A stretch of DNA of 33,674 bases from a virus. The notes beneath the pieces were generated by a model, which saw only the letters and a program-made list of their open reading frames with translations, was not told where the DNA came from and did not search any database. A program made the translations under genes and the position numbers. This document shows positions 27,768-33,674 of the stretch, piece after piece. The stretch is taken from IMG/VR virus record IMGVR_UViG_3300034092_002087, positions 1-33,674 of that record; one strand, 5' to 3'. The stretch's first letter is position 1; each line of letters starts with the position of its first letter.

Positions 27768-29869
27768 TGCGGCCCGCCGGTCCTATCAACAATAGCACGC
27801 ACACTAGAAGGCACGTTCAACCCTTGTGCTACCAAGAATGCCAACATAGACCTAATTTCTCCAGAGGTATCAGTAGGTCCAGTTGCTTGGTCAAAGCCTA
27901 GGCGCCTGGCAAAGGCATCTGCTACGCGCAGCATGTCCACTTCATTGGACGTAGCGTAAACTGCGGGACTTCCTGGTTGAGCGGGGAATGAAACGCTAGG
28001 AGAAGTCATAGGCAAAGTGGACAGTCGATCTGCCTCTGCCATAAATTCGCCGTAATAACGACGTAAAGTAGGGTTATTCAAACGTTGGGCCAACTCTGGC
28101 GACACAGAGTCCTCAGGTAGAGGCCTGGATATGCCAAGGTGTTCTCCAACTTCTCTTGCTGTTCCTGCTAAGCCGAGTCTGTAGAGGTCCTCAACGCCAG
28201 CGGCATACTGACTACCGGACGTTTTGTTTCGTTTGCTTTGAAGCCAGGTTACTAGTTCACCCATGACAGTTGAAATCGTACGCAACACAGGGCGCATCTC
28301 TTCCATGAATGTCGCTAGTTCAGTCAAAACAGTGCGAACAGTGTCTATGTTTTGCGTGATGAACTCACGTAGTACATCCTGTATAGACTCTAGCGCGTCC
28401 TTTAACTGCGCACCGTTATCTATATTTTCATTCGCTATGCTCGCGGCTCTTCTAGACTCGTGAAGAAATTCGTCGTTACCACCACTAAGTAAGCTGCGGA
28501 TGTCACGAAGGATGTCCCGCTCAGACTCCAATGCTTCTCCCAGCACTGCTGTAGGGTCTTCTCCAGCTTTAATAGCTTTTTGTACCGCTTCTATTTGATC
28601 TAAAGTAAGCCTTCCTCCTAACATGACTTTTATGGCTCGGTTGGCTTCTTCTCCGCTTCCAGCAGCCTCATTAACTGTATCAATCATTTGTTTGATAAAT
28701 TGTGGGTCGCCCGCTGTTCCGCGCTCAAGTGCTCTTTCAGCCTCATAAAAGCTCTTGCCTCCTCCAAAGCCCATTGCATGCAAAGCCAAAGCCCGACCCT
28801 CTTCACCGCCACCAGGCGAAGTAAATCCCTCCTCCAAGGCGCTGGCTACAGCTGCGCCACGTGCACCTTGCAAACCAGAGACACCGCTCCTTGCTAGGGT
28901 AGACAAAAGCTGAGCGAAAGGAGCAGTAGAGACATCACCCGCAGCTCTTCCAGCTGCTTTGGACGTCAAGTCCATTACACCAGAAAGAAACTCTGGAAGC
29001 CTTGCTTTTTCTAGGCCCGAGGCAACTCCTGCTGCCATTGCCTTAGTCAAGTCTCTGTAACCAGCGCCTGTGCTAGTAAAGTCTTTGTAACCAGCCTGTC
29101 TCATCTGACCGAGCATCCCGGTCGTTTCGGATACATCCTGGCCCAAAACTCTAGATAACGCGAGAGCAGATCCTGTGCCTTTGTAGGACCCCGTTGCTCT
29201 CGAAGTCATAGCAGCAGCAGAAATTACTTCTTCTGGAGAATAGCCTAGAGCTTTACCAGCCCCTAGACGCAGAGACTTTATATCTGCAGCCGAGGCTCCA
29301 CCTCCTGCGTATCCTGCCAGCTTGGATAGCTGCTGTGCGTAGTTCCTGTACGACTCGTATTGCTCGCCTATGGCCCTAAAAGGCATTGCGACGAGACGAG
29401 TAAGGGCACTAACCGCAGAGGCAGCTAGCGTGCCCACGGCCGTAGACAGCACACCACCCAGAAGCGCACCAGCAGCCTGGCCCCATTCTCCCCTGTCTCT
29501 TGGCACGTTAGGTAGAAGCCGGTCCCTCAACCCTCCAAGAAAGCCGCCACTGAACGTGGAGCGTGATCTTCTCTCTTCGTTTGCGCGTAACCTAAGGCGT
29601 TCCCTACGTATCTTGTTCTCTGTAGCGAACAAACGATTGCGAGCTTTCAAGTCTTTCAGTTCTCGCAGAGCTTCTTTCTTCTTCTCTTCGCGCTCACGCT
29701 TTGCCTGATCCTTAATGGTCTTTGTAGTATCGGCTTCTTTCTTATTTTGGCTAACGGTTTGCTGATGGACCTTCTTAGCCTGTTTACCCATGGCCGCGAT
29801 GTCCTCAGCGGCTTCTTCGGCTCCGTGAGTCTTTACATTAACATTTACATTATGATTAGTTTCGGACAT
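27764..29869 (-). CDS. tail tape-measure protein
   Basis: This 701-residue protein sets tail length and probably leaves the tail ahead of DNA. The N-terminus has a long charged helix (about residues 28-105, rich in K, E and R: TKTIKDQAKREREEKKKEAL) followed by a hydrophobic, Ala/Gly-rich stretch (132-164, AAGALLGGVLSTAVGTLAAS) that could insert into a membrane. The remaining sequence is helical with Gly/Ser turns, standard for tape measures. At roughly 1.5 A per residue the length predicts a tail tube near 100 nm, an estimate only. It follows the tail chaperone genes by two bases, the canonical order. The ATG is at 29867-29869. Confidence 0.87.
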   Translation of the reverse strand: MSETNHNVNVNVKTHGAEEAAEDIAAMGKQAKKVHQQTVSQNKKEADTTKTIKDQAKREREEKKKEALRELKDLKARNRLFATENKIRRERLRLRANEERRSRSTFSGGFLGGLRDRLLPNVPRDRGEWGQAAGALLGGVLSTAVGTLAASAVSALTRLVAMPFRAIGEQYESYRNYAQQLSKLAGYAGGGASAADIKSLRLGAGKALGYSPEEVISAAAMTSRATGSYKGTGSALALSRVLGQDVSETTGMLGQMRQAGYKDFTSTGAGYRDLTKAMAAGVASGLEKARLPEFLSGVMDLTSKAAGRAAGDVSTAPFAQLLSTLARSGVSGLQGARGAAVASALEEGFTSPGGGEEGRALALHAMGFGGGKSFYEAERALERGTAGDPQFIKQMIDTVNEAAGSGEEANRAIKVMLGGRLTLDQIEAVQKAIKAGEDPTAVLGEALESERDILRDIRSLLSGGNDEFLHESRRAASIANENIDNGAQLKDALESIQDVLREFITQNIDTVRTVLTELATFMEEMRPVLRTISTVMGELVTWLQSKRNKTSGSQYAAGVEDLYRLGLAGTAREVGEHLGISRPLPEDSVSPELAQRLNNPTLRRYYGEFMAEADRLSTLPMTSPSVSFPAQPGSPAVYATSNEVDMLRVADAFARRLGFDQATGPTDTSGEIRSMLAFLVAQGLNVPSSVRAIVDRTGGPQ

Positions 29870-29871
29870 GC

Positions 29872-30381
29872 TCAGTCATCGTCATTTTCAGAAAACCCGA
29901 ACGTTGGCATGTTGCTCAGGTTTTCTAGGTTTGGAAGCGTAGGCTTGCGCCTATCGGAGACTGTAATACCTTCACGAGTTGCTTGCGCACTAATTTTATC
30001 AACAGTTGACTTCATAGACAACCCGGCGTACGGATCTTTAGCTCTCGCAGCTGCCTTAAGCTTCTCTATGTGACGAATGCTTTCTTCGTCGAACGCTTCC
30101 ATCAGGTCAGGTATCTCTCCGTCTGCAATCTGCGCCTCCCACCTGTCGATAAGAGTATCTCCTGTGTCTCGTAACTGAATCTCGCCCTTAGCGTTTCTGT
30201 GCGCTTCAATTGGCTTTTGCTCAAACTTATCTAACCAGAAATCCGTCAGAAGCTCAAATAGCGTGCTGTTTTGAAACAGCTCATGGTTCGAGGGCAGCCT
30301 GTACTTCTTGACCCACCACCGCGCGAGCGCCTCCAGCAGGGTTGGTTTCCTGAACATTTCCCGAGCCACTTCCTGCGCCAT
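29872..30381 (-). CDS. tail assembly chaperone, second frame
   Basis: This second open frame overlaps the first chaperone in a different frame and ends two bases before the tape measure. It stays open upstream to at least 30474, but sequence from 30474 to about 30390 is Ser/Arg-rich and looks untranslated. From about 30390 the translation becomes protein-like (MAQEVAREMFRKPTLLEALA, then WWVKKYRLPSNHELFQNS). An ATG at 30379-30381 exists, but GGAG lies directly against it with no spacing, so independent initiation is doubtful. The usual alternative is ribosomal frameshifting from the upstream gene. The relation between frames is +1 or equally -2. Role: chaperone for tape-measure packing, by analogy with lambda gpGT and P2 gpE+E'. 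The start is the weakest point. Confidence 0.7.
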   Translation of the reverse strand: MAQEVAREMFRKPTLLEALARWWVKKYRLPSNHELFQNSTLFELLTDFWLDKFEQKPIEAHRNAKGEIQLRDTGDTLIDRWEAQIADGEIPDLMEAFDEESIRHIEKLKAAARAKDPYAGLSMKSTVDKISAQATREGITVSDRRKPTLPNLENLSNMPTFGFSENDDD

Positions 30382-30474
30382 CTCCGTTATTGGTCGCTCG
30401 TTCAACCGCCCTACGGAGAAACGAGTTCTCGAATTCGAGAACCTCCTTGAATACCTTTCCGAGAAGATTAACAT
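30281..30474 (-). other. overlap of two chaperone frames; candidate programmed frameshift region (+1 or -2)
   Basis: Two frames are open together for 194 bases. The first frame has codons beginning at coordinates equal to 1 mod 3 and the second at 0 mod 3, so the shift needed is +1 (skip one base) or -2, not -1. No classical heptamer of XXXYYYZ form is evident. Protein-likeness switches from first to second frame near 30380-30395, around an internal GGAG. The first frame ends CCA TGA, a sequence of the kind that can slip +1, but that is downstream of the apparent switch. Confidence 0.45.
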
Positions 30475-30763
30475 CGTTAATCTTGTCTAAATCCCACCAA
30501 GGAGGAGATGACTTAATAGACAACTCTAGATGAGCTATCATGTTGTTGAAGTCATCCGTCTGCTCATCGACACCACGACCAGGATTATTTGAGTCGTAGT
30601 ACATGCCACCGTTCAGCTGGGCTTTTCGAACACCTAAAGCAGCGATGTCCCGAATAGAAAGCTTCTTGATGGTGAAATTACCTTGATATCTATGGTTCTC
30701 ATAATCCGAGACGTAGTCAATGGTAAAAGTCTTGGTTAAATTCTGTCTGGCGCTAACAGTCAT
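30281..30763 (-). CDS. tail assembly chaperone, first frame
   Basis: This 160-residue protein starts at an ATG at 30761-30763, preceded by AGAGGG seven bases upstream. A GTG at 30781 is less likely. The N-terminal part is folded (TKTFTIDYVSDYENHRYQGN, FTIKKLSIRDIAALGVRK) and its opening resembles tail chaperones of myophages. The C-terminus degenerates to a Gly/Ser/Ala tail (NNGDGAGSGSGNVQETNP) once the sequence overlaps the second frame, consistent with the real product often switching frames there. It lies between tube and tape measure, the expected site. It is the first gene after the 364-base non-coding gap and so is likely to have its own promoter. Confidence 0.8.
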   Translation of the reverse strand: MTVSARQNLTKTFTIDYVSDYENHRYQGNFTIKKLSIRDIAALGVRKAQLNGGMYYDSNNPGRGVDEQTDDFNNMIAHLELSIKSSPPWWDLDKINDVNLLGKVFKEVLEFENSFLRRAVERATNNGDGAGSGSGNVQETNPAGGARAVVGQEVQAALEP

Positions 30764-30820
30764 AAATTGTCCCTCTAGCACTAATCTGACACGCTTATCC
30801 CTTCAGTCAAGGGTATGCGT

Positions 30821-30849
30821 AGTATAAGCGACCCCGATATGCTGCACAA
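30821..30849 (-). promoter_or_regulatory. possible sigma70-type promoter for chaperone/tape-measure genes
   Basis: Read on the minus strand, TTGTGC (30844-30849) and TATACT (30821-30826) are separated by 17 bases, a fair -10 and a weak -35. It lies about 60 bases upstream of the chaperone ATG. Only the -10 resembles consensus well, so confidence is low. Confidence 0.3.
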
Positions 30850-30954
30850 ATGCAGCTTTTCTGGAAAGTCGCTAATAAGTCAAGCTAATTGCACGATTTC
30901 TAGCCTAGGACAAGCTGTTACTGCCTAGTTGGTTAGAGTATCGCACACTATACC

Positions 30955-30982
30955 TTGACATGTAGTAATATTGGCTTATGAT
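30955..30982 (+). promoter_or_regulatory. sigma70-type promoter sequence on the plus strand, antisense to the genes
   Basis: On the plus strand a perfect TTGACA (30955-30960) is followed after 16 bases by TATGAT (30977-30982), five of six matches to the -10 consensus. It points towards the tube gene, opposite to all genes here. The transcript would contain the 15-bp inverted repeat. This is sequence resemblance only. Confidence 0.4.
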
Positions 30983-31076
30983 CTTACTGAGCTGAATTTA
31001 GGGGTTCTATTTGAGGATCTGGATCAAGATCAAGATGGATCATCTGTCTAAGGATAGATCTATCTTTTCTGAGCGT

Positions 31077-31117
31077 ACTGTATAGGTACACCACCATATG
31101 TAGTGTACCCATACAGT
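31077..31117. repeat. 15-bp inverted repeat (hairpin) after tail tube gene
   Basis: The arms are ACTGTATAGGTACAC (31077-31091) and GTGTACCCATACAGT (31103-31117), complementary at 14 of 15 positions with the remaining pair a G-T or C-A depending on strand, and a loop of 11 bases. It begins ten bases after the tube stop codon. No T-tract follows on either strand, so it is not a classical intrinsic terminator. It may protect the 3' end of the tube message, act as a processing site, or bind a protein as DNA. Confidence 0.7.
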
Positions 31118-31127
31118 AACAGCTATT

Positions 31128-31553
31128 TCATGCAGGATTCTCAAACTCATCAAGAACACGAATAGACACAAATGTGACGTTCTCCTGTACTATGCCTCGT
31201 GCAGTGACGTCAAAAGAGTGACCCGAGCACCTGACTCCCTGGAACAGCGCCAGTGTCTGCCGTGTTACAGTATCCTGTATTGCTGCTTCTAAGTCACCAG
31301 AGGTGATGATCTCTTCCTGTCGTGGAAGAATTCCAAGCTTTTTAAGCGAGTTACCTACTACGCGGAAAACCTGAGCGTTGAGACTGGTACGGTACGCTAC
31401 CGGAACGAACTCCCGTACTTCTAGGAACTGAATGACGTCAACAGGCTCGTAGTCAATCATCTCTTCACCAGATACACCTCCTGCGAAGGCAACTGGTACC
31501 GAGTTGATTAAGAATACGGCTCGTGCTCCGCTGAAAGTATTAGATGCAGCCAT
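31128..31553 (-). CDS. tail tube protein
   Basis: This 141-residue protein is the likely major tube subunit through which DNA passes. It has the size and beta-rich pattern of gp19/XkdM-type tubes: an N-terminal strand-turn (NTFSGARAVFLINSVPVAFA), a middle loop (VDVIQFLEVREFVPVAYRTS), a helix (SGDLEAAIQDTVTRQTLALF), and a C-terminal strand pair (GIVQENVTFVSIRVLDE). The ATG at 31551-31553 has an excellent AAAGGAG site. It lies downstream of the sheath and one other structural gene and upstream of the chaperones, the expected order. The alternative is a sheath-associated tail-completion protein, but position and size favour the tube. Confidence 0.82.
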   Translation of the reverse strand: MAASNTFSGARAVFLINSVPVAFAGGVSGEEMIDYEPVDVIQFLEVREFVPVAYRTSLNAQVFRVVGNSLKKLGILPRQEEIITSGDLEAAIQDTVTRQTLALFQGVRCSGHSFDVTARGIVQENVTFVSIRVLDEFENPA

Positions 31554-31585
31554 GTTGAGCTATCTCCTTTAAGATAGGTAGCGTG

Positions 31586-31633
31586 TAAAGGAAGAGCCAT
31601 GATGGAGGGGACGACACTTGCACCCTTCCTTTA
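31586..31633. repeat. 9-bp inverted repeat in the gap before the tail tube gene
   Basis: TAAAGGAAG (31586-31594) and CTTCCTTTA (31625-31633) form a perfect stem with a 30-base loop, extended by GCG/CGC after a two-base bulge. The gap runs from 31554 to 31648 between the 412-residue protein and the tube. In the message, the stem lies just upstream of the tube ribosome site (AAAGGAG) but does not cover it. It may tune relative expression of the two genes. Confidence 0.5.
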
Positions 31634-31648
31634 CGCACTGCTAGTTTA

Positions 31649-32887
31649 TCACGTAGGTAGCACGAAAGCTACTACTGCGGCCTGAGCGGCACGTAAGACT
31701 TCCGCCAAAGCTCTGTTATCGCGTGCCTGGCCTCCTGGAGCAAACGTGTAGTTCCTGGACGCGTCACTTGAATCTTCGGGTACAGTAACTACTGCCGTCA
31801 CACCCGAACCCGGTGCCGAAGAGAATGGAGGTGCAATCTGTACCGTAGACTCGTCATTCGAGATAATCTTACGGATACCAAATCCAGTCACGTCGAGCTT
31901 CTGGTTCTTGAGTTCGTCAATACGGAGGTTCAAACCACGAGTATTGAGCTTGATAGCAGACGACGACGAGCCAGCAGCAGTTGTACCAGAGAACAGTCTA
32001 CTCTCTGAGATGGTTGCGCCACCTAGTTGCTGAACGATTCTTACTAGAGCATCAGCTACGATACGGCTGTCTCCGTAAACGTTTGCTGGTGGAGCGTTAG
32101 AGAACCCGAGGCGCCCCTGCAGTAGTGAGTTGATCGCGTTGTCTACAAACGTACCCTGTATGGTGTACGTGTCTCCTACTGCAGGAGCTGCAGGAAGTGC
32201 TCCAGTAGCGAAGTTCAGGGTGTTGGCATTGTTGGAGATTACAACAGCGCGACGTCCCGCAAGAGCAGCGGTTACGTTACCGGTGAACACTACAGTGTTA
32301 CCGACCTGCGTGTTAGCTACATACGCGCCGGTATCCGACAGGCTGGTAGCCGTGCCTCCAGTCGCCGTTAGGTTACCTGGAAGATTGAGGGCTAGCATGA
32401 GCAGCTCCAGCGCGGAGGCCATGTCCTGCGCACGCAGGAAGTTAAGCGGCAGCGTGTCTACGCCGCCTTCGCCGCCGCGACCACCACTCAGATGGGTGGC
32501 AGCGACTGCAGCTGACAGCGAACCTGTACCTGCGCCGGGAGGCACAACAGCAAGTACAAGCGCCGAAGCAGCAGCAGATGCGTTGATAGCGGCCGCAATC
32601 AACGTAGACGTGTTCGATGCGGGTACCAGCACGCCTGTGTTTACAGCAAGCGCGATACTGATTACCGAGCCGCTTACGCTAACAGTAAGGCCGCTCGTTC
32701 CAGATCCAGGAACTGTGACGGCTACTTGAATACTGTTGCCTCGCACTCCAGGATCCTGTGCAAGGATGCGAACTGCGGAGGTTCCCGAACCCAGCGTAAG
32801 CTCCGCAGCGGAGTAGCCAGGGCCGGTACGCAGAACGTCTCGGACTCTCTTCAGATACAGAGTTACGTCGGTGGCAAGTGCAGGCAT
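31649..32887 (-). CDS. structural protein encoded between sheath and tube
   Basis: This 412-residue Ala/Gly/Ser/Val-rich protein starts at an ATG at 32885-32887 with AAGGAG nine bases upstream. Residues about 25-137 form a beta-rich domain of a kind seen in phage virion proteins (ILAQDPGVRGNSIQVAVTVP, TSTLIAAAINASAAASALVL). Residues 173-247 are a module with GNVTAALAGR, shared with the large baseplate protein at 16205-19117. The C-terminal part (about 255-412) has a helical segment (SRIVADALVRIVQQLGG) and beta strands. In most contractile phages sheath and tube genes are adjacent, so this extra gene stands out. It may be a tail-surface or second tail-shaft component. No named family is recognised. 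Confidence 0.7.
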   Translation of the reverse strand: MPALATDVTLYLKRVRDVLRTGPGYSAAELTLGSGTSAVRILAQDPGVRGNSIQVAVTVPGSGTSGLTVSVSGSVISIALAVNTGVLVPASNTSTLIAAAINASAAASALVLAVVPPGAGTGSLSAAVAATHLSGGRGGEGGVDTLPLNFLRAQDMASALELLMLALNLPGNLTATGGTATSLSDTGAYVANTQVGNTVVFTGNVTAALAGRRAVVISNNANTLNFATGALPAAPAVGDTYTIQGTFVDNAINSLLQGRLGFSNAPPANVYGDSRIVADALVRIVQQLGGATISESRLFSGTTAAGSSSSAIKLNTRGLNLRIDELKNQKLDVTGFGIRKIISNDESTVQIAPPFSSAPGSGVTAVVTVPEDSSDASRNYTFAPGGQARDNRALAEVLRAAQAAVVAFVLPT

Positions 32888-32907
32888 GAGAAATTACTCC
32901 TTAACTA

Positions 32908-33674
32908 TTAAGCGGACTGTGTTGGGAGGGACAAGAAAATATCAATCAACTCGAAGTTGATTCCGGGAACAGGGAAGATACCTACGTTGAGCGTAAGGAT
33001 GTCTCCCGAAGAGAATACCTTTAGCCCGTAGTACGCACGAATCGTTGCGCCTGTTGCAGGGTCTGTTGAATCTACAATGATGTTCTGCTGTCTGTAGGTC
33101 TCTAGCAGCGTGCTAGCTGTGTCCTTCACAGATGCAATTGTCGCTGGTGTTGCTTTTCTGCCTGTGAACCTACGGTCGATCGTGGTGCGTAGCCCGTAAG
33201 CTACATGTCTAACTACATCGCGGATACTGCCTTCGCTGTACGCCAGATTGTCATCGCGTACCCACGTTGTCATATCGCGTACCCACTTCGTTCCCTGGCC
33301 AGGAATCGTCTCAGCGAACATCACTCCGTTTTGGATGAAGTCCCCTGAATCCGTAACATCAGAAGGATCCCACGAAGAATCCTGTGTCAGTGAAGATACA
33401 CGCAGGTACTTGTTTGTAAGCGGCTCGCCAACTTCATTGACGCCTAGGCGCATAGACGCGCCCATGACTGCCAACTCTCTTGGTCCTTTCTGTACTAGGT
33501 TGCCTGAAGATCCAACAATTGTTGGACTTTGTGCTACAAGTGCTACATCCGCATCGTTGACTACATTAGCCGCTGAAATTATCTGCGACTTATTGCCACG
33601 GAAACCTAGCCATCCGCCACGCTCCAGACCAGCTGCTCCGCGCGCCGCTGTTACGTGGTCCACAAGCTGGGCAG
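32908..33674 (-). CDS. tail sheath protein, C-terminal part (partial)
   Basis: The frame is open to the right edge, so the N-terminus lies outside. The 250-odd visible residues carry the conserved sheath C-terminus: TKWVRDMTTWVRDDNLAYSE, then RDVVRHVAYGLRTTIDRRFTG followed by RKATPATIASVK, and finally VGIFPVPGINFELIDIFLSL. The PVPGINF-type ending is characteristic of contractile sheath proteins, which polymerise around the tube and shorten on infection. A GTG at 33663 is not the real start since coding continues upstream (AQLVDHVT). The gap to the next gene is 20 bases and carries its ribosome site. This identification establishes the myovirus morphology. Confidence 0.88.
   Translation of the reverse strand, partial: AQLVDHVTAARGAAGLERGGWLGFRGNKSQIISAANVVNDADVALVAQSPTIVGSSGNLVQKGPRELAVMGASMRLGVNEVGEPLTNKYLRVSSLTQDSSWDPSDVTDSGDFIQNGVMFAETIPGQGTKWVRDMTTWVRDDNLAYSEGSIRDVVRHVAYGLRTTIDRRFTGRKATPATIASVKDTASTLLETYRQQNIIVDSTDPATGATIRAYYGLKVFSSGDILTLNVGIFPVPGINFELIDIFLSLPTQSA

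Follow-up and report, generated by a model that had tools for sequence, protein, structure and literature searches.

The gap between the tail tube and tail assembly chaperone genes

The window analysed here, 33,674 bases of a linear IMG/VR fragment, contains a 364-bp gap (30764-31127) that separates a tail tube gene from a tail assembly chaperone gene, both read on the minus strand. The tube gene (31128-31553, 141 aa) falls in PHROG 985, virion structural protein, and its identity, already asserted in an earlier note on this DNA, is upheld by a profile of the tube protein and its relatives, which matches the tail tube protein of PDB entry 8q01 with an E value of 3.9e-8. An AlphaFold model of the protein was poor (mean pLDDT 44.1) and was set aside. 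The chaperone gene (30281-30763, phrog_25000), for which relatives were found, starts with the ATG at 30763, and its frame overlaps a 200-aa frame on the same strand (29872-30474), as in the tail chaperone pairs made by programmed frameshifting. The order of genes is sheath, tube, chaperone and tape measure, with one extra gene between the sheath gene (32908-33672, minus strand, phrog_279) and the tube gene that comes after it. This extra gene (31649-32887, minus strand), coding for 412 amino acids, was matched neither by PHROG at E up to 0.001 nor by Pfam at E up to 0.01. The gap had been described as the only large one, and indeed the next gap between minus-strand genes in the list of open reading frames measures 95 bp (31554-31648).

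A search of 50,697 phage records with 28500-33674 gave no DNA match at the sensitivity used, the tube protein had no tblastn match among phages at 1e-5, and no relative was confirmed in the genome_contigs set. Likeness to the Herelleviridae is suggested by the tube profile match, by the gene order and by a helicase gene that resembles, among other matches, those of Twort-like phages (24-26% identity); no membership is claimed. Two closely similar records, contigs 44729 and 44678, show no differences from the window within 30764-31127. Elsewhere, 20 of the 22 differences from these near-identical contigs cluster at 29405-29770, in the tape-measure frame, and the match to contig 44678 breaks at 27815-28279, also in that frame, a pattern that looks like a recombination patch.

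A stem-loop follows the tube stop codon

Directly 3' of the tube stop lies a stem-loop (31076-31118, minus strand) of 18-19 bp including two G-U pairs, whose 19-nt arms (31076-31094 and 31100-31118) are 89% complementary. A 15-bp inverted repeat had been noticed at this place; the repeat is there, although larger than claimed. Its score of 16.6 makes it the top short-loop inverted repeat of the whole window (the next scores 11.8) and was reached by none of 1000 dinucleotide shuffles of the gap. The two arm mismatches turn into G-U pairs on the minus strand only (two G-U against no A-C), and the best-scoring stem reaches -26.2 kcal/mol on the minus strand versus -20.9 on the plus strand. The proposal that the hairpin belongs to a plus-strand RNA is not supported, as these wobble pairs work on the minus strand. 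The fold of 31071-31124 (z -6.45) has the stability expected of the stem-loop of an intrinsic terminator. The complete gap sequence has a more stable fold than its shuffles on both strands (z -4.81 on the minus and -4.08 on the plus strand), mainly because of this hairpin: once it is removed, z is about -2.7 on either strand.

No U tract occurs right after the hairpin on the minus strand, where the tail reads TACGCTCAGAAAAGA, or CAGAAAAG after the full stem, and for this reason its terminator score on that strand, computed with the d'Aubenton Carafa formula, is -9.6. Terminators free of a U tract have been described in mycobacteria, and these were not counted as evidence here. The window hairpin may therefore be a weak terminator or a barrier at the 3' end of the mRNA. 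A 16-base stretch of its arm was found in 14 IMG/VR stretches, but the hairpin is formed only in the near-identical L128 and L132, and it is consequently not a mobile repeat.

Hairpins and predicted terminators in related loci

Scans of IMG/VR with the tube protein gave 31 and then 59 loci, in overlapping sets, and scans with the chaperone gave 7 and 13. Strong repeats, defined by a score of at least 11 and a distance of up to 110 nt from the tube stop, were counted at 42 non-redundant loci, after leaving out loci identical to another over the stretch from 60 nt ahead of the tube stop to 120 nt past it, the near-duplicates L062, L055 and L089, and L086, whose contig ends within the tube gene; the control consisted of 238 stops of other mechanically listed open reading frames in the same loci. 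Such a repeat followed the tube stop in 14 of the 42 loci, against 6 of the 238 control stops, and scores of 14 or more were reached at five tube stops and at none of the controls. The other 28 loci lack a strong repeat after the tube gene, and two of the 14 repeats (L075 and L082) fall within the next reading frame.

When these 14 hairpins were taken together with that of Bacillus phage Goe2, 27 G-U pairs were counted on the strand of the tube gene versus 9 mirror A-C mismatches, an excess with p 0.012 after correction for composition. Within the group closest to the window, the hairpin sequences are unrelated to one another, which, together with the G-U bias towards the tube-gene strand, indicates that the hairpin acts in the tube mRNA; a bias of this kind would not be predicted by a signal at the DNA level or by a plus-strand RNA. 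Five of the close-group gaps hold a hairpin followed by a U tract, with sense-strand terminator scores of 36.7 (L042), 22.6 (L045), 16.0 (L047), 7.6 (L048) and 20.7 (L037), the scored hairpin of L037 coming after inserted genes and not after the tube gene. Further positive scores were obtained in L064 (39.3), L074 (21.9) and L087 (11.8).

Promoter-like sites ahead of the chaperone gene

Upstream of the chaperone start, the minus strand carries a predicted sense promoter (30783-30810) consisting of TTGACT (30810-30805), a 16-nt spacer and CAGATT (30788-30783), with TGn before the second box. This is the window's copy of a conserved site. In all six gaps scored (the window, L042, L045, L047, L048 and L037), the homologous site was the best sense site, formed by TTGAC(A/T), 16 or 17 nt and a TG-preceded second box just before the chaperone start; L051 was left out of the scoring because of its inserted gene. 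The shuffle p values were 0.246 for the window, 0.032 for L042, 0.006 for L045, 0.082 for L047, 0.018 for L048 and 0.104 for L037, so that the predicted promoters of the window, L047 and L037, taken singly, lie within chance. Since the single cases are not all significant, the weight of the case for a promoter here is in the shared position. A seventh close gap, the 82-bp gap of L050, has a weaker sense site (score 8.5, p 0.24). An alternative GTG start of the chaperone frame, at 30781, would sit upstream of the predicted transcript start.

The minus-strand promoter proposed in the earlier note, TTGTGC (30849-30844), a 17-nt spacer and TATACT (30826-30821), is present and is the second-best sense site of the gap (30821-30849), but it was not seen at the homologous place in relatives.

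Tail modules of cultured phages

A terminator, that is a hairpin and a T run, was found right after the tube gene in five of six cultured Herelleviridae (812, Goe2, VEfB7, LP65 and SPG24), and none at the annotated tube end of Enterococcus phage KEN16; Twort was left out of the scoring, an intron-encoded nuclease following its annotated tube frame. Behind the terminator, a strong sense promoter was identified in 812, VEfB7 and LP65 (reached by 0 of 300 shuffles in each), with no clear one in Goe2 and SPG24. The tail module of 812, vB_Lino_VEfB7, LP65, Goe2 and SPG24 consists of sheath and tube with the terminator straight after, and the chaperone and tape measure further on. The window resembles it in the order of these genes, in the hairpin at the tube 3' end and in the predicted sense promoter before the next gene, the latter with a p value of 0.25 on its own. 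It differs in several respects: the tube gene directly follows the sheath gene in the six cultured regions, whereas the 412-aa gene intervenes in the window; the gap of the window measures 364 bp; its hairpin is without a U tract; and its antisense promoter-like site is absent from the five cultured gaps.

Mapping of transcript ends in Listeria phage CKA15 (PMC12282133) has placed an intrinsic termination site behind the tube gene, and a start and an end on either side of the chaperone operon. The arrangement is like that predicted for the window in its termination site after the tube and its start site before the chaperone operon. It is unlike the window in that the boundary was mapped experimentally; the sections consulted describe no antisense transcript there.

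A probable boundary between two late transcription units

We consider it probable, from comparison of sequences, that two late transcription units, both read on the minus strand, meet in the gap, and that this boundary is of a known kind. This reading rests on the U-tract hairpins and promoters of relatives, the terminators of cultured Herelleviridae and the mapped ends of CKA15. The earlier suggestion that the gap divides sheath and tube from the downstream tail genes is thereby sustained, as relatives and cultured Herelleviridae again have the hairpin at this position and the promoter downstream, and the CKA15 ends agree; its description as a switch found no support. Comparison establishes, at the level of predicted features, where the hairpin and the shared promoter lie, the strand bias, and that cultured phages have this layout too.

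According to the mechanism that we propose, the upstream unit (sheath, 412-aa gene and tube) would end in the stable stem-loop that directly follows the tube stop codon. This RNA structure most likely halts RNA polymerase or slows it down, while shielding the 3' end of an abundant mRNA. We infer that the hairpin of the window, too, brings polymerase to a stop, its U tract having been lost or never acquired. The downstream unit, which includes the chaperone, its overlapping partner and the tape measure, would start about 20 nt before the chaperone ATG at its own promoter (30810-30783), which we likewise infer to be used. Such a boundary would be a simple way to achieve an output of tube and sheath far above that of chaperone and tape measure. 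A terminator-plus-promoter boundary mapped in one Listeria phage would then extend to far relatives found only in metagenomes, with unrelated hairpin sequences. The window's version of this predicted boundary is odd in having no U tract and in the antisense promoter-like site that it has in common with its closest relatives.

It is possible, though not probable, that the hairpin does not terminate transcription, which would read through, and serves only to stabilise the 3' end of the mRNA or as a processing site. The absence of a U tract and a free energy of about -26 to -32 kcal/mol would fit such a role, as would the sister clade L054-L063, in which a stem free of a U tract is found in the tube-chaperone interval, immediately upstream of the chaperone ribosome site. 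The five other close-group gaps, with a hairpin and a U tract before the chaperone, argue against it and for the transcription-unit boundary.

A conserved block and an antisense promoter-like site

The plus-strand promoter that had been proposed, TTGACA (30955-30960), a 16-nt spacer and TATGAT (30977-30982), exists and agrees with the consensus at 11 of 12 positions. No antisense site in the gap scores higher than this one (30955-30982), whose score was reached by 0.8% of 500 dinucleotide shuffles; a plain consensus scan of 28500-33674 gave 3 promoter-like sites versus 3.7 expected. The existence of a plus-strand promoter is partly supported, because the homologous TTGACA site is the best antisense site in five of the seven closest gaps (the window, L042, L047, L048 and L037), but it is missing in L045 and L050. 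The shuffle p values, which are not independent since the gaps are homologous, were 0.008 for the window, 0.040 for L042, 0.128 for L047, 0.004 for L048 and 0.046 for L037, against 0.180 for L045. None of the five cultured gaps has a significant antisense site (p 0.64-0.90).

The plus-strand TTGACA is the reverse complement of a block common to the gaps of five relatives (30953-30994 in the window, TCAG...GTCAAG on the minus strand), and a DNA pattern for the whole block returned six contigs, all already known. The TGTCAAGTGAC block could be read as a protein-binding site, an operator or activator site for the sense promoter, with the antisense TTGACA only its reverse complement, which we regard as unlikely. 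An inverted repeat, TGTCA-AG-TGACA, in L042 and L047, with TTGTCAAGTGAC in L048 and L037, and the retention of AGTCAAGTGAC without an antisense second box in L045 are points in its favour. The window, however, has TTGACA and an excellent TATGAT without the GTGAC half, and TGTCAAGTGAC occurs exactly once in the 169-kb relative G001, and is therefore not a repeated regulatory site there.

As for the smaller repeats pointed out in the gap, the 12-base palindrome GATAGATCTATC (31053-31064) is real but at chance level, as one turned up in 99 of 1000 shuffled gaps and there are ten in the window, while the GATC repeats are in excess (six, against a shuffled mean of 1.3). A GATC cluster lies at 31015-31060.

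A candidate short antisense-oriented RNA

From the promoter-like site and a terminator-like hairpin followed by TTTTCTG on the plus strand (31032-31066; best score -0.1, borderline, for 31034-31064), a candidate antisense-oriented RNA of about 84 nt (30989-31072, plus strand, with a putative start) can be predicted; in the window and its relatives, the predicted RNAs measure 67-97 nt. We think it quite unlikely that this promoter drives a short non-coding RNA that ends at the terminator hairpin and acts in trans or through collision with read-through polymerase. In its favour are the recurrence and the low p values of the site in four of the gaps (all but that of L047), a stretch after the second box that is alike between relatives by eye, and antisense terminator scores of 30.9 (L047), 14.2 (L048) and 12.4 (L037) beside the -0.1 of the window. 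The distribution of sites scoring 10 or more in G001 (169 kb, 88% coding) is also favourable: nine are intergenic, eight are sense within genes and only one of the 18 is antisense inside a gene, so that high-scoring sites lean to promoter-like places. Against it stand its absence from L045, L050 and the cultured gaps, the p value of L047, the non-independence of the homologous gaps, an antisense terminator score of -23.7 in L042, the fold of the candidate window RNA, no better than shuffles (z -0.89), and the poor second boxes of relatives, which have CAGGAT (L042 and L047), TACAGT (L048) and CATAAG (L037) in place of TATGAT.

The further claim that a plus-strand RNA would run antisense into the tube gene was not supported. 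The borderline terminator-like hairpin at 31034-31064 precedes the tube hairpin, and the RNAs predicted for the window, L042, L047 and L048 do not reach the tube frame. The conserved block of L011/L037 sits beside the chaperone gene, 4.6 kb away from the tube gene, behind inserted genes that include one for a 1078-aa protein, fibre-like by eye; there is thus no conservation of a tube-antisense function. The antisense promoter-like site stays with the chaperone gene even where other genes follow the tube.

We are equally doubtful of a wider version, in which a clade of uncultured large myophages would have a divergent promoter beside the chaperone promoter, giving a conserved non-coding RNA of 70-100 nt that runs back into a hairpin, either the one that ends the upstream unit or one beside it; convergent transcription would tighten termination of the very abundant tube/sheath message, or the RNA would act in trans. 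Were the antisense promoter real, it would constitute a conserved convergent-transcription element in the structural region of a lytic phage. Among the titles and abstracts listed for antisense RNA combined with tail tube and terminators, none describes an antisense RNA at this place. The OOP RNA of phage lambda is a short RNA directed against its neighbouring gene, starting at an intergenic promoter and ended by a terminator, and it overlaps the 3' end of its target gene. The candidate RNA would be like OOP in being short, counter-directed, expressed from an intergenic promoter and terminator-ended. It is unlike OOP in that the predicted window RNA would end short of the tube gene and that, in L011/L037, 4.6 kb separate the predicted RNA from that gene.

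Inserted genes and RNAs between tube and chaperone

It is rather improbable that most of the gap was left behind when a mobile gene or a tRNA cluster was lost. The same place is occupied in relatives by LAGLIDADG homing-endonuclease-like genes (L051:3452-4285 and L074:676-1644), a GIY-YIG homing-endonuclease-like gene (L063:3456-4148), an HNH-like gene below the Pfam cut-off (L072:3442-4131), four Rfam tRNAs in a 768-bp gap (L064:3599-4149) and the other genes of L011. In the window, however, no Rfam family reached threshold, with only weak unrelated matches at E up to 10, and ARAGORN found no tRNA, so that by these searches the gap contains neither a known RNA family nor a tRNA. By eye only, a stretch resembling a D-arm was seen on the plus strand.

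In the sister clade, a putative leader RNA was noticed just before the chaperone ribosome site of L054, L055, L056, L057, L060, L061 and L063 (for example L057:3462-3504), formed by GAGATCC, a stem and GTTCTC with a conserved lower helix. In its alignment, where the L055 row is two bases off register, 98.3% of cells are paired versus 34.5-52.5% in slid versions; shuffling gives a weak control (67 of 500), and a change on both sides is seen in a single pair. In L063, this leader RNA stays with the chaperone gene though the GIY-YIG gene sits after the tube.
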